A DNA stretch of 59,535 nucleotides from positions 1 through 59,535 of the forward strand of contig VXME01000107.1 in NCBI GenBank assembly GCA_009861545.1, written 5' to 3'. Position numbers and translations under genes: made by a program. Below the pieces are notes generated by a model, which was not told where the DNA came from, made no database searches, and saw nothing but the letters and a program-made list of their open reading frames with translations. Positions 27,778 through 47,939 of the stretch are shown piece by piece (the stretch's first letter is position 1; each line of letters starts with the position of its first letter). This DNA is from Acidobacteriota bacterium. Lineage in GTDB: Bacteria; Acidobacteriota; Vicinamibacteria; Vicinamibacterales; UBA8438.

Positions 27778-28758
27778 CTACTGCGATCCCCCCGCCACCG
27801 CGCCGGCGAGGATGTTGTAGAGACCGTAGTTCCCCTCGTGGCAGGCGTACTCGTAGAGCGGCTCCGGGTTCCTCCGCATCGGCACCGAGAACGTCCAGGG
27901 CCGCGTCCACACCGTCGGGTCGTCGACGGTGACGTCGTACCGGAGCGTGTCGGCGTCCACCCGCGTAAGGCGCTCCACGAGCGTGAGGTTGGGCGTGGTC
28001 GATCCCCGCATGAAGTTCGTCTCGCGCAGGAAGTTCCTGGTCTCCACGACCAGGGTGTCGCCCTCCCAGTGGCCGCGCGAATCGCCGGTCCACTGTCCGA
28101 TGCCCGCATCCAGATGATCGCGCCCGTCCAGCGGGACGACGCGGGCGTTGTGGTTCATCTCGTTGTAGAGCACGACCGTGTCCTCGGTCTGGAACACCTG
28201 CACGTTGTTGTTGTACGCGCTCGGCGCCATCGGCGGGCCCGAGTTGAAGCCGAGGATGCAGCGCACCTGCAGCCCGCCCGGTCCGAGGTCCTCGACGAAC
28301 CCGCCCTCTGTCGGCTCGTGGCCGCCCACGCCGGCCCGCGCCTCTTCCAGCGCCTGCTGCCGGTCCATGGCCTCCTGCGTCAGCGGCGGGATCCGGCCGT
28401 CCGGCGGATCGACCACCAGCGACGTGCGTTCGGTGGTGACGGATGTGCCCTCATCGAACCAGAAGTCGTTGTAGGGCACGACGCGGTCGGACGTGTCGTT
28501 GTCGCGGCTGCGGGTCCGGATGGTCTCCTCGGCGAACTCCGCGGCTTGCTCGGCCGTGAACGTCTCGGTGTCGGCGAGCTCCTCGGGACGTTCCATCGGC
28601 GTGAGGCTGCGGAAGTCCCAGACCCCTTGCAGATCGGGGGCGCCCCACGGGGTGCGCGGCGGCTCCATCGACCCCTCGGTCTGCGCCCCGGCCTCCAGCG
28701 GCGCGAGCGCGACGATCGCCAGAACGGTCAGCACTGCTGCAAGCGCGTGACGAGTCAT
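27778..28758 (-). CDS. Secreted protein of unknown function
   Basis: 326 residues with a signal peptide (residues 1-25, LAIVALAPLEAGAQ). The mature start PPRTPWGAPDLQGVWDFRSL and the C-terminal YEYACHEGNYGLYNILAGA are hallmarks of a large uncharacterised family, frequent in Acidobacteria. The middle contains VVPLDGRDHLDAGIGQWTGD and GHWEGDTLVVETRNF. The ATG has GAGGAGG 7 nt upstream. Promoter repeat copy 1 ends 45 nt before the start. Function is unknown; a periplasmic or outer-surface role is inferred from the signal only. Confidence 0.75.
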   Translation of the reverse strand: MTRHALAAVLTVLAIVALAPLEAGAQTEGSMEPPRTPWGAPDLQGVWDFRSLTPMERPEELADTETFTAEQAAEFAEETIRTRSRDNDTSDRVVPYNDFWFDEGTSVTTERTSLVVDPPDGRIPPLTQEAMDRQQALEEARAGVGGHEPTEGGFVEDLGPGGLQVRCILGFNSGPPMAPSAYNNNVQVFQTEDTVVLYNEMNHNARVVPLDGRDHLDAGIGQWTGDSRGHWEGDTLVVETRNFLRETNFMRGSTTPNLTLVERLTRVDADTLRYDVTVDDPTVWTRPWTFSVPMRRNPEPLYEYACHEGNYGLYNILAGAVAGGSQ

Positions 28759-28803: not shown

Positions 28804-28916
28804 ATTCTAGAAATCTGCGCCGCAGGACGCAACGGAGTGAGTTCTGCGGCGCAGGGCCCTGAGGCGGTGGGGACTGGGGCCGAACACGGAGCCTTGCGAC
28901 GGGTATGGCGGCGCCA
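28804..28916 (-). repeat. Promoter-bearing intergenic repeat, copy 1
   Basis: Reading on the minus strand: GGCGCCGCC, GTGTTCGGCCCC, then TTGCGT (28827-28832), 17 bp, TAGAAT (28804-28809). Perfect 11-bp arms CTGCGCCGCAG (28815-28825) and CTGCGGCGCAG (28844-28854) flank the -35 element. It starts 25 nt after the stop of the alpha/beta hydrolase gene. Copies 2 and 3 are at 32304-32415 and 47361-47475. Confidence 0.75.
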
Positions 28917-30989: not shown

Positions 30990-32261
30990 TCACGACGTCG
31001 CGCGCTCCCCCGGGTGCGCAGGCAACGTCGCGCGAAAGTAGGTTCTTCCCTCGTCGAAATCGAAGCGGGGCGGCGGCGACCCGTTCCTCGCCATCGCCCC
31101 GAAGATCTTCGACACGCCGGTCAGACGTCGTTCGGCCAGCTTGAGCTCCGAGAGGAACTCGCCGATGCGACGGTTGCGCGCCGGCATGGCGGGCACCGCC
31201 GCCCCCGGCAGGAAGTGCTCCGGCTCGATCCCGGGCACCGGGCCCGGGTAGCTGGTGATGTCGATCCGGTCGGGGTAGCAGTAGACCTTGGTCGGCTCGG
31301 ACGCCTCGGGCCGATAGCTCCGGTGATAGAGGGCGTTGACGACCGCCTCGCGGATCGCGTCGAGCGGGTAGTTCGTCCAGGACAGCGACCGCACGCGATC
31401 GGGAGCCTTCCTGATCTCGGTTTGCAGCAGGCTCTCCAGATACCTGAGGCTGCCGCGCAACTGGGTCACCAGGCCACCTCGGAAGATACGCTCGCGCAGC
31501 GTGTCTCCCGCCGGACCCTCTGGAAACAGGACGACGTCGGTCCGGGCGCCCGGGAACCAGTGCTCCGGATCGTCGGTGAAGAGCAGGAGGGCGATGTTGC
31601 GGGGCAGCTCGGACCCGTTGGCGCGCACCGTCAGCCGCATGCGACGGTAGACCTCGCCCGCGGACGGCTCGTCAACCAGCCCGCTGCGCACGTCCCGCAG
31701 GAACTCGCGGACGGCCGCCTCGCGCAGGTCCTCGATCCGCGCATCGAAAGCCCGCCGGTCGTCCCACGGGACGCGCGCGGTCTGGGCCATCAGCCCGGAC
31801 AGCAATCCGTTGGCCTGCGCGTCGACCGTCTCCGCTCCCAGGCGAATCCAGTACTTCGCGGCGCCGCGAGGCCCGTCCGGCGCCGAGTGCGGCTTGATGT
31901 CGCTCGCCGGCGCCCAGAGTACGAGGACGCGGCGGCCGGCGACGACCTCGGGAGACACGACCGGTTGGTACGGCGGGTCGAGACGCTTGCAGTGTCCGCG
32001 GATCCATCTTCCTGCCGCGGCGATTTCGGCCGCGGTCAGACCGGCCGGCGGCGTGACGCCGCGGCCGTGCTCCTCGGCGACCCCGAGCACAACGTATCCG
32101 CCGTTGAGGTTGTGGTAGTCGTTCGCGAACGCGCAGATCGTCTTGAGCGCCTGATAGCCGGTGGTCCTCGGGTTCCAACCGGACTTGAACTCGACACGTG
32201 CGGATTCCACGCCGCGACAGTGGAGCAGATCGTCGAGGTTGATCGGCAGTATGGAGCTCAC
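30990..32261 (-). CDS. AlbA_2 (Schlafen-type) domain protein with ATPase-like C-terminus
   Basis: 423 residues from the GTG at 32261. The N-terminal AlbA_2 domain shows LPINLDDLLHCRGVESARVE and FKSGW...ICAFANDYHNLNGGYVVLGV. The middle and C-terminal parts contain YPLDAIREAVVNALYHRSY and RIDITSYPGPVPGI, which are GHKL-type ATP-binding motifs of this family. Members are annotated as helicase-related or ATP-binding transcriptional regulators and often travel with mobile elements; function is unsettled. The longer frame to 32387 runs into the repeat and is rejected. Repeat copy 2 ends 42 nt before the start and may be its promoter. Confidence 0.78.
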   Translation of the reverse strand: MSSILPINLDDLLHCRGVESARVEFKSGWNPRTTGYQALKTICAFANDYHNLNGGYVVLGVAEEHGRGVTPPAGLTAAEIAAAGRWIRGHCKRLDPPYQPVVSPEVVAGRRVLVLWAPASDIKPHSAPDGPRGAAKYWIRLGAETVDAQANGLLSGLMAQTARVPWDDRRAFDARIEDLREAAVREFLRDVRSGLVDEPSAGEVYRRMRLTVRANGSELPRNIALLLFTDDPEHWFPGARTDVVLFPEGPAGDTLRERIFRGGLVTQLRGSLRYLESLLQTEIRKAPDRVRSLSWTNYPLDAIREAVVNALYHRSYRPEASEPTKVYCYPDRIDITSYPGPVPGIEPEHFLPGAAVPAMPARNRRIGEFLSELKLAERRLTGVSKIFGAMARNGSPPPRFDFDEGRTYFRATLPAHPGERATS

Positions 32262-32303: not shown

Positions 32304-32415
32304 AATCCAGGAGACTGCGCCGCAAAAACGCAACGCAGTGAGTTCAGAAGCGCAGAGTCCCAGGGCCGGTGGGCCGGGGCCCAACACGGAGCCCTGCTAC
32401 AGGTTCGGCGGCGCT
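32304..32415 (-). repeat. Promoter-bearing intergenic repeat, copy 2
   Basis: Minus-strand order: GCGCCGCCGAACC, GTGTTGGGCCCC, TTGCGT (32328-32333), 18 bp, TGGATT (32304-32309). The hairpin is weaker than in the other copies: a 6-bp CTGCGC/GCGCAG core at 32315-32320 and 32350-32355. Its 5' end touches the pepF stop codon. The -10 is less consensus-like than TAGAAT in copies 1 and 3. Confidence 0.7.
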
Positions 32416-34249
32416 ACCCGGCCTGCCGGTCGAGAATCGCCTCGATCTCGTCCATCACCCGGTTCATGCGGCCAATCAGCGCATCGTACGGCGCTTCGGT
32501 CGCCAGGTCTATCCCGCGGTCGCGGAGCAGCTCGTAGGCGTAGCGCGAGCCGCCGGCGCGCAGGACGGCCAGGTAGTCGTCGCGCGCCCGGCCGTCGCCC
32601 CCGAGCAGCCGCTCGGCGAACAGCGCCGCCCCGGCAATCGACGTCGCGTACTGGAAGACATAGAAGTTGCTGTAGAAGTGCGGGATGAACGCCCACTCGA
32701 CGGCGTAGGCGGCGTCGTACTCCAGCACGCCCTCGTCGGAGCCGTGGTAGCGGCGCACGAGCTTCTCGTACCGGTCGGTCAGCTTCTCGCCCGACAGCGC
32801 CTCCCCCTGCTCGGCCAGCTCGTGCATCCCGAGCTCGAACTCCGCGAACATCACCTGGCGGAAAAACGTGGCGCGAATCGCCTCGAGGGCCGTTCCCAGA
32901 TAGAACAAGCGCTCGCGGGACGAGAGGTCCTGCGAGAGGAGGTGCTCCTGCAGCAGGATCTCGTTGGTGATGGATGCGACCTCGGCCGTGAACGTCGCGT
33001 AGCCTGCCGTCTCGTAGGGATTCTGCTGCTTGGCCAGCACCGTGTGCATGGCGTGGCCCCACTCGTGCACGAGGGTGGTGACGTCGTCGTACTCGCCGTT
33101 GTAGTTGAGCAGCAGGTAGGGATGCCCGTCATAGACGGCGCCGTACATGTACGCGCCGGGCGCCTTGCCCTCCTGCGGGTAGACGTGCATCCAGTCGCCC
33201 GCGAGCGCCTCGCGCAGCAGAGCGACGTACTCGTCGCCGAGCGGCGCGGCGGCGGCGGCGGCAATCGACCTGGCCTCGTCGAGCGGGAACGACCGCTCCG
33301 ACGCGACGAGGGAGGGATAGATGTCGTAGTAGCGCAGCTCGTCGAGGCCGAGCATCCGCTGCCGGAGCCGGAAGTAGCGGTGGAGCGACGGCAGATGGCG
33401 GTTGGCGGAGGCGACCAGCGTCCGGTAGACGGCCTCGGGGATGTTCGGCCCGGCCAGCGCCGCGTCGAGGGCGCTCGTGTAGCGCCGCGAGCGGGCTTCG
33501 AACACGTGCGCCTTGACGTGCGTGTCCAGCGTCTGCCCCAGCGTCGCCGCGTAGCCCTTCCACGCCTTCCAGAACGCGTCGAACACCCGCTTGCGGTCGG
33601 CGCGGTCGCGGGAGGCGCGGTGCTTGCCGTAGGCCGCCTGATCGAGACGCACCTCCTCCCCGGTGGAGAGAGTGACCGTCGGAAACGGCATGTCCGAGCT
33701 CGTCAGCATCGCGAACACGCGCTCCGGTCCCTGGCGCATGGCGCTGGTGCCGGCGATGACCGCCTCGGCTTCGTCCGACAGCGTGTGCGGCTCCTTGCGC
33801 AGGATGTTGCGGACGTTGAAGGCGTGCCGGGCGAGGCGCGGCTCCTCTTCGAGATAGCCTTCGATGGTCGCCGAGCCGACGCGCAACAGCTCTGGCGAGA
33901 CGAAGCTCGTCGCCTCCTCGAACGCGGTCAGCAGCAGGGTAACTTCCCCGCGCCGCTCCTGCGCCTCGGACACCCGCCGGTCCTCGTCCGCCCTGAGGAA
34001 TGCGAACACGTAGAGCCGGACGAGGTCCTTCTCGGTGCCGCTGATCGCGTCGAGGGCCTCCGAGAGCGTCGCGGCGCTCTCGCCGAGCCGGCCCTTGAAC
34101 CGCGCCAGGTCATTCACCCGCGCTTCGAGGCGCGTCTTGTCCGTCCGCCAGGCGTCGAGGCTGTCGTAGATCTCCGCCAGGTTCCACTCGATCTGCGCCG
34201 GGGCCGCCGGAGCGGGCCCGGTAGTCGCTGTCGTCGTCATCTTCCTCAT
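32414..34249 (-). CDS. pepF: Oligoendopeptidase F (M3B metallopeptidase)
   Basis: 611-residue cytoplasmic zinc peptidase that degrades short peptides. The zinc motif is HEWGHAMH, preceded by GEYDDVTTLV and followed by the third ligand region FTAEVASITNEILLQE. Family blocks NLAEIYDSLDAW at the N-terminus and YATSIAGAALFAERLLGGD near the end are intact, and length is standard. The start is ATG 34249 or 34240; GAGGAAG lies between. It follows acnA on the same strand with an 18-nt gap, so the two may be co-transcribed. Confidence 0.92.
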   Translation of the reverse strand: MRKMTTTATTGPAPAAPAQIEWNLAEIYDSLDAWRTDKTRLEARVNDLARFKGRLGESAATLSEALDAISGTEKDLVRLYVFAFLRADEDRRVSEAQERRGEVTLLLTAFEEATSFVSPELLRVGSATIEGYLEEEPRLARHAFNVRNILRKEPHTLSDEAEAVIAGTSAMRQGPERVFAMLTSSDMPFPTVTLSTGEEVRLDQAAYGKHRASRDRADRKRVFDAFWKAWKGYAATLGQTLDTHVKAHVFEARSRRYTSALDAALAGPNIPEAVYRTLVASANRHLPSLHRYFRLRQRMLGLDELRYYDIYPSLVASERSFPLDEARSIAAAAAAPLGDEYVALLREALAGDWMHVYPQEGKAPGAYMYGAVYDGHPYLLLNYNGEYDDVTTLVHEWGHAMHTVLAKQQNPYETAGYATFTAEVASITNEILLQEHLLSQDLSSRERLFYLGTALEAIRATFFRQVMFAEFELGMHELAEQGEALSGEKLTDRYEKLVRRYHGSDEGVLEYDAAYAVEWAFIPHFYSNFYVFQYATSIAGAALFAERLLGGDGRARDDYLAVLRAGGSRYAYELLRDRGIDLATEAPYDALIGRMNRVMDEIEAILDRQAG

Positions 34250-47360: not shown

Positions 47361-47475
47361 CCGGCGCCGCCGAACCCGGCGCAGAGCCGTGTTCGGCCCC
47401 AGCCCCCACCGCCCCAGGAGCTCGCGCCACTTGAGCGCACTACGTTGCGCTTACGTGGCGCAAGCTCCTAGAATC
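47361..47475 (+). repeat. Promoter-bearing intergenic repeat, copy 3
   Basis: Plus-strand order: GGCGCCGCCGAACCC, GTGTTCGGCCCC, TTGCGC (47445-47450), 18 bp, TAGAAT (47469-47474). Arms at 47417-47430 and 47455-47468 form a 14-bp stem with one mismatch, flanking the -35. The arm sequences differ from copy 1 yet still pair. The -10 ends 6 nt before the ATG of the next gene. Confidence 0.75.
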
Positions 47476-47480
47476 GAGTC

Positions 47481-47939
47481 ATGGCTCCACGTTCGGCTGC
47501 GCGTACTCCTTGCGCTCTGTGCGGCTCCAAGGAGGTTTCCGAACCCCGCGGGGAGGAGAAGTACTGTCAGGAGTGCTGGGTGAAGAAGATGGCGGTCGAG
47601 GACGTCGTCGCCCAGGAGTTCGCGCTCAAGCGGTACATCCGGGCGCACAGCGCGGAGAAGTACCTCGTGTATCACTCGACCCAGAAGAGACCCTGCGGCC
47701 AGCTCATCGTCGTCGACGACGGCTACGACCTCTTCCTCAGTCTGATCCTCTACCCGACGTTCTCCTGGGACGAACCGGCCTATCACCTGGAGGGCGACCC
47801 GGAAGGACGCGCGTTCGCGGAACTGTTGGTCGACGTCGTCGCCGCCGAGGTGATCGAGCCGTGGGGCGGCGGGAAGTGGCATCTGGAGGTGTTCCGGTCG
47901 GCGAGCGCCGAGCCCGAGGACTGGAACGGAGAAATGTAA
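47481..47939 (+). CDS. Zinc-ribbon protein of unknown function
   Basis: 152 residues. An N-terminal four-Cys zinc ribbon, PCALCGSKEV...KYCQECWVKK, is followed by a mixed alpha/beta region (LIVVDDGYDLFLSLILYP, FAELLVDVVAAEVIEPWGGG). I recognise no family. The ATG follows repeat copy 3 directly, with TAGAAT ending 6 nt before it, so the mRNA would be leaderless. Confidence 0.65.
   Translation: MAPRSAARTPCALCGSKEVSEPRGEEKYCQECWVKKMAVEDVVAQEFALKRYIRAHSAEKYLVYHSTQKRPCGQLIVVDDGYDLFLSLILYPTFSWDEPAYHLEGDPEGRAFAELLVDVVAAEVIEPWGGGKWHLEVFRSASAEPEDWNGEM

Follow-up and report, generated by a model that had tools for sequence, protein, structure and literature searches.

Three copies of a short structured repeat (c1, c2 and c3; Table 1) lie in the window, the whole 59,535-nt stretch of DNA analysed here. 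All three, with the shared ordered blocks reported in a preliminary description of this DNA, are present in the sequence. The promoter geometry reported there also holds: TTGCGT, TTGCGT and TTGCGC stand 17, 18 and 18 nt 5' of TAGAAT, TGGATT and TAGAAT, which in turn lie 45, 42 and 6 nt before the ATG, GTG (32261) and ATG start codons downstream of c1, c2 and c3, respectively. With its ATG only 6 nt past the -10, the gene downstream of c3 is near-leaderless. A profile built from other copies, with those of the window excluded, recovered the three at E = 1.8e-25, 4.5e-18 and 5.3e-15, and gave no match better than E = 2 in 20 Markov-simulated windows.

The copies are real, but the unit that moves is shorter than first described and runs from CGCC to CTCC. 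The TAGAAT-type end is present as well; its flanking TAG or TGG and the rest of the -10 box belong to the insertion target, not to the element. Similarly, the GC-rich inverted repeat exists, but as two adjacent hairpins, not a single one.

Separately, the AlbA_2/HATPase gene that follows c2 is absent from this locus in one related genome (G003), and only its end remains in another (G001). We considered whether this gene and c2 form a gene cassette and rejected the idea, since the retained end makes loss in G001 the simpler explanation.

Table 1. Coordinates of the three repeat copies, their promoter-like boxes and the downstream genes in the window.
Feature	Position	Strand	Basis or remark
c1, A-type mobile unit (CGCC...TTTC)	28810..28913	-	sequence, profile
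c1 flanks	left TGG 28914-28916, right TAG 28807-28809	-	sequence
c1 -35-like hexamer TTGCGT, element-borne	28827..28832	-	17 nt upstream of TAGAAT
c1 -10 box TAGAAT, native	28804..28809	-	empty site in G001
Gene downstream of c1	27778..28758	-	no Pfam match; synteny conserved in G001, G003
c2, A-type mobile unit	32310..32413	-	sequence, covariance-model search
c2 left TAG, stop codon of upstream ORF	32414-32416	-	one of the sites at which the left TAG ends a coding ORF
c2 -35-like TTGCGT	32328..32333	-	sequence
c2 -10-like TGGATT, weaker, 18-nt spacer	32304..32309	-	sequence
Gene downstream of c2, SLFN_AlbA_2 and HATPase_c_4 domains	30990..32261	-	domain search
c3, A-type mobile unit	47365..47468	+	sequence, G002/G003 empty sites
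c3 left flank CGG, decayed TAG	47362-47364	+	sequence
c3 -35-like TTGCGC	47445..47450	+	sequence
c3 -10 box TAGAAT, native	47469..47474	+	empty sites in G002, G003 read TGCTAGAATC
Gene downstream of c3, encoding a zinc-ribbon-like protein of 152 aa with CxxC motifs	47481..47939	+	no Pfam match

A dispersed family of small elements

The preliminary description had proposed a covariance-model search of the genome and its relatives. Carried out with a model of 24 copies, alongside BLAST with copy 1, this search uncovered a dispersed family with ~50 copies in the genome of the window (G000, 6.35 Mb, Vicinamibacterales-type). Among 60 relatives (G001 to G003 and others), at least 63 copies were found in each of five and 24 in G002; the repeat is abundant in two genera and occurs as a single copy in two genomes. 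The remaining ~50 relatives, other genomes of the family and order, had no copy. The isolate names of many of these bins suggest sponge hosts, and G000 is accordingly taken to be sponge-associated. Neither viral contigs (searched with the exact 3' motif) nor plasmids or phages gave a match to the element, and no Rfam family matched at its gathering score.

The unit is 103-107 bp long in both type A and type B and carries no transposase gene. The two types have a common 3' hairpin (GGAGTCTGCGCCGCAGAAC...GTTCTGCGGCGCAGACTCC), with TTGCG in the 3' arm 17-18 bp from the element end, and differ in their 5' hairpin (CCGAACCCG..CGTGTTCGG in type A, CGAAACGCC..GGCGTTTCG in type B), where three base pairs are altered on both sides. 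Because the RNAalifold consensus pairs 5' GCGCC with 3' GGCGC and misses the obvious 3' hairpin, we used the covariance model for searching only. Exact units also form head-to-tail arrays with a period of 104-107 bp, including a B unit followed directly by an A unit, and head-to-head pairs occur.

Two further observations concern the anatomy of the family. A third type, C, of ~83-86 bp (CCCGACAAGCCTCGCC...AAGTCTACGCCGTTCTACGGCGCAGACACC between TAGs), lies in the downstream flank of the G000:C104 copy and has dozens of matches in G001-G003, mostly in G002; it combines the same kind of 3' hairpin with another 5' module. In addition, the copy at G000:C110:83517-83629 is in frame within a predicted signal-peptide ORF (MRIS, ~33 residues and then LLAIVAVLVLSTASLAAA), resembling the in-frame palindromic elements of Rickettsia.

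Insertion at TAG

Comparison with orthologous sites in three congeners, empty in some genomes and filled in others, bears out the earlier suggestion that the repeat is dispersed and mobile. At site C14, G002 is empty (CCCTCGTAGACT) and G001 is filled (CCCTCGTAG, the unit and then TAGACT). The c3 site is empty in G002 and G003, where TAGAAT is already in place, and holds a 5'-truncated copy in G001. At the c1 site, G001 is empty (CGCTAGAATGGG) and has its own TTGCGG 19 nt upstream of TAGAAT. In G003 a B-type copy separates TAG from AAT, and in G000 an A copy is present and the native -35 region, still found in G001 and G003, is gone. The same TAG can be occupied by different types: C111 holds A, B and C in G000, G001 and G002, respectively, and C53 is A, B or empty across three genomes. 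Site C151 contains B forward in G000 and inverted in G001, and is empty in G002.

These empty and filled pairs and repeatedly used TAGs define the mobile unit as CGCC...CTCC, with a TAG at either side of it after insertion. The single TAG of the empty C14 site identifies the flanks as a target-site duplication, for which TA plus an obligatory G is indistinguishable from TAG. Any base may precede the left TAG; C precedes the right one, which fixes the right boundary. At 14 of 98 sites, c2 included, the left TAG is the stop codon of a coding ORF, and landing at such an amber stop preserves it. One copy lies inside an ORF.

An IS1182 terminal repeat at the 3' end

The statement that no described family matches the repeat fails for the 3' end. 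This end is identical to the terminal inverted repeat (TIR), GGAGTCTGCGCCGCAGAA, that borders autonomous IS1182-family transposons in MAGs both related and unrelated. The 5' end (TAG followed by CGCC) is not an IS1182 TIR and has only GCGCCGC in common with it. Terminal inverted repeats, looked for at both ends, were thus found at the 3' end only, making the element asymmetric and MITE-like.

Among 84,980 species genomes searched, the 3' motif occurs in at least 120 stretches, carried by Acidobacteria, Gammaproteobacteria, Longimicrobiales, Nitrospirales, Aminicenantes and others; these loci were selected by a complete CTCCTAG terminus, a choice that biases the set toward intact right ends but not toward particular flanks. 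Some loci have the motif at both ends, comprising symmetric MITEs of 110 bp and 160 bp and elements of 1560-1604 bp. The long elements examined encode an IS1182-family transposase between the repeats (NF033551, E = 2.5e-104), and full IS1182 copies in G006 have an identical 4-base flank at each end (CTAG, CGAG or CTCG). The IS1182 end sequence is near-identical in MAGs of many phyla, with at least two element size classes (1560-1582 and 1604 bp), a pattern that suggests its wide horizontal spread. A bare 32-bp hairpin of two IS1182 ends (GAGTCTGCGCCGTAGAAACGGCGTAGACTCC) was also observed at a TAG stop codon in G002 (C115), where G000 has a B copy.

Given the IS1182 TIR at its 3' end, the element would most likely be mobilised by an IS1182-type transposase acting in trans; the 5' end, which is not an IS1182 TIR, counts against recognition by such an enzyme. 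Fragments of the matching transposase occur in G000, G001 and G026, the G000 fragment consisting of the IS1182 TIR and the start of the gene (53 codons) at the edge of a contig, and none was found in G002, G003, G011 or G023. G003 carries at least 63 copies, and a search at E ≤ 1e-10 found nothing there that is related to the TIR-matching transposase. The divergent IS1182-family transposases of G003 and G011 were considered as parents and rejected, as their ends do not match. G006 has intact IS1182 copies yet no A or B copies. MAG assemblies lose repeats, so the absence of either enzyme or copies is weak evidence. At C122:4780-4823, the IS1182 fragment of G000 runs into a TGGCAAGTTGAAAAGGGACCCCC repeat, probably another insertion sequence, at the contig end.

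Native -10 boxes and gene orientation

The repeat had been proposed to be a promoter element. Its -35-like TTGCG is indeed element-borne, but the -10 hexamer belongs to the host sequence and is already there in empty sites (G002 and G003 for c3, G001 for c1). A usable -10 is found at only about a quarter of copies, the others being flanked by CC or other sequence. After deduplication, A[AC]T follows the right TAG at 22 of 96 sites and the left TAG at 4 of 81 (p = 0.001), with 12 of 42 versus 4 of 40 in G000 alone. It follows 1.7% of other CTAG sites and occurs at 5 of 164 ends of TIR-only elements.

A gene lies co-oriented downstream of 20 of 22 A[ACT]T copies versus 28 of 74 others (p = 1.5e-5; 99 sites drawn from related genomes and deduplicated by downstream flank only, with genes called by a simple codon-usage predictor). 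Copies lying at random relative to genes had been expected to tell against a promoter; placement is strongly non-random in the A[ACT]T subset but random in most of the family. Intergenic regions without copies have an excess of TTG exactly 17-18 nt upstream of TA[GT]A[AC]T (9 versus ~1 at other spacings), making this combination a plausible host promoter form. As the -10 pre-exists and the target TAG lies on one strand, insertion does not disrupt the box and orients TTGCG toward it, and the orientation bias needs no selection because the target is strand-specific. B copies often have CTGCG for TTGCG, yet they too lie at -10 boxes; the flank pattern therefore does not depend on -35 function.

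At three clearly orthologous promoter sites (C95, C40a and C99), the middle or 5' part of the element is deleted, replaced or interrupted in relatives; TTGC, a 17-bp spacer and TASACT are retained in five of five relatives' copies. At one of these sites in G002, TAG has become TAC, giving TACACT, which retains the -10 and not the transposon end. The whole element is conserved equally at three orthologous non-promoter sites (C69, C70 and C88). These few cases suggest selection on the promoter segment. A comparison of 3' with 5' segment identity in all paired copies was rejected as proof of selection: it is confounded, because the 3' segment is common to both types and some of the pairs arose by separate insertions. 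Only the three clearly orthologous sites were therefore used.

Proposed mechanism and alternatives

We consider it quite probable that the repeat is a non-autonomous, IS1182-ended mini-element of 103-107 bp that targets TAG and forms fusion promoters at -10 boxes. An IS1182-family transposase recognising the shared 3' TIR would insert it at 5'-TAG-3' and leave TAG on each side. TAG would be scarce in this GC-rich genome except in -10 boxes (TAGAAT or TAGACT) and amber stops. Insertion into a -10 box would spare the box and, since the target is read on one strand, would usually turn the 3' end toward the gene; the element's TTGCG, 17-18 bp upstream, would then take over from the native -35 to give a predicted fusion promoter, presumably transcribed. 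At a TAG stop codon, the stop would be kept. We give about even credence to a further-reaching picture, in which a mobile -35 module reads its TAG target on one strand and so lands at -10 boxes and amber stops: genes would be spared and upstream promoter halves swapped in a fixed orientation, and some of these swaps would by now serve the genes as working promoters while the remainder of the element decays around them.

Insertion into promoters could instead be neutral or slightly deleterious, if the native -10 (in many cases of the extended form, TGCTAGAAT) is enough by itself and the element is tolerated with no role for its -35. Strand-specific TAG targeting alone explains the orientation bias, B copies without TTGCG have the same flanks (right 8/39 versus left 2/31), and TTGC shows only a modest excess at A[ACT]T copies over the others (11/15 versus 20/44 in A; 3/8 versus 11/32 in B). 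We nevertheless regard neutral insertion as unlikely, in view of the retained TTGC, 17-bp spacer and TASACT at C95, C40a and C99, which is suggestive in a small sample with a segment shared by A and B, the TACACT copy in G002, and the G000 c1 site without its native -35 region. Very unlikely, and disfavoured for the family as a whole, is a dedicated and selected promoter cassette whose copies persist since they drive genes: all three window copies and most A[ACT]T copies face genes, but most of the family has no -10 and random orientation, and tandem arrays, head-to-head pairs, stop-codon insertions and a copy within an ORF speak against it.

Asymmetric ends, subterminal hairpins, a tetranucleotide beside the hairpin and tandem units would also fit a hairpin element of the REP/RAYT or IS200/IS605 type mobilised by a Y1 transposase, but genomes with copies have no PF01797 protein or only unrelated ones, and this domain does not track the repeat; with an IS1182 TIR at the 3' end and TAG on both sides of the insert, we find this highly improbable. 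There is similarly little chance that the repeat is a structured RNA or riboswitch upstream of genes. Its two hairpins, and the three 5'-hairpin pairs changed on both sides between A and B, are outweighed by unrelated downstream genes, the lack of an Rfam match and random orientation at most sites; moreover, the element ends upstream of the -10 and so lies outside the transcript that this promoter would start. An integron attC site was dismissed, as inspection found no core sites.

If the TAG-targeting account is true, promoters of GC-rich symbionts are rewired through target choice alone, not through selection on each insertion. TAG should be infrequent in coding DNA and cluster in -10 boxes and stop codons, two kinds of site that survive insertion. 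It would also account for a MITE reaching high copy number cheaply, with gene control rewired and the gene unbroken.

Comparison with known systems

A TAG-targeting, asymmetric, IS1182-ended element was not found in the literature searched, which covered few subscription papers. Like IS1182-family transposons (NF033551), the element has the identical 3' terminal repeat and TAG or CTAG on both sides; unlike them, it is a 103-107-bp unit without a transposase and its 5' end is no TIR. Members of that family target palindromes, and IS1272 replaces targeted inverted repeats without a target-site duplication (PMC5678879).

The Correia/NEMIS element (CREE) of Neisseria, a ~105-bp MITE with hairpins and sigma-70-like promoters, has target duplications (TA, TATA or TATAG) similar to -10 boxes, which promotes the formation of fusion promoters (PMC10969869, PMC9330008, PMC2229807). 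It is similar in size, hairpins, sigma-70-like promoter parts and -10-like target duplication, and by inspection it has another TIR (the ends here are CGCC and GGAGTCTGCGCC). Unlike Correia, our element has a TIR at one end only, its orientation is fixed by a one-strand TAG, and amber stops are a second target. RUP of Streptococcus pneumoniae is a 107-bp MITE of IS630-Spn1 that has a TA-containing target and is inferred to be mobilised by the IS transposase via a shared TIR (PMC2229807). Size, target and inferred mode of mobilisation are alike, whereas RUP belongs to another IS family, has symmetric TIRs and has no reported functional DNA motif.

Hybrid promoters formed by an outward -35 in a terminal repeat and a -10 in the flank are known for IS1, IS2, IS5, IS21, IS30 and others (PMC9330008). 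In those systems a -10 is encountered by accident; in the present element, TAG targeting would prefer -10 boxes. Fusion-promoter MITEs are thus already known, and it is the TAG targeting, the IS1182-type end and the asymmetric 5' module that look new. If our account is true, such MITEs extend beyond well-studied pathogens to Acidobacteriota, with related copies in Gammaproteobacteria MAGs.
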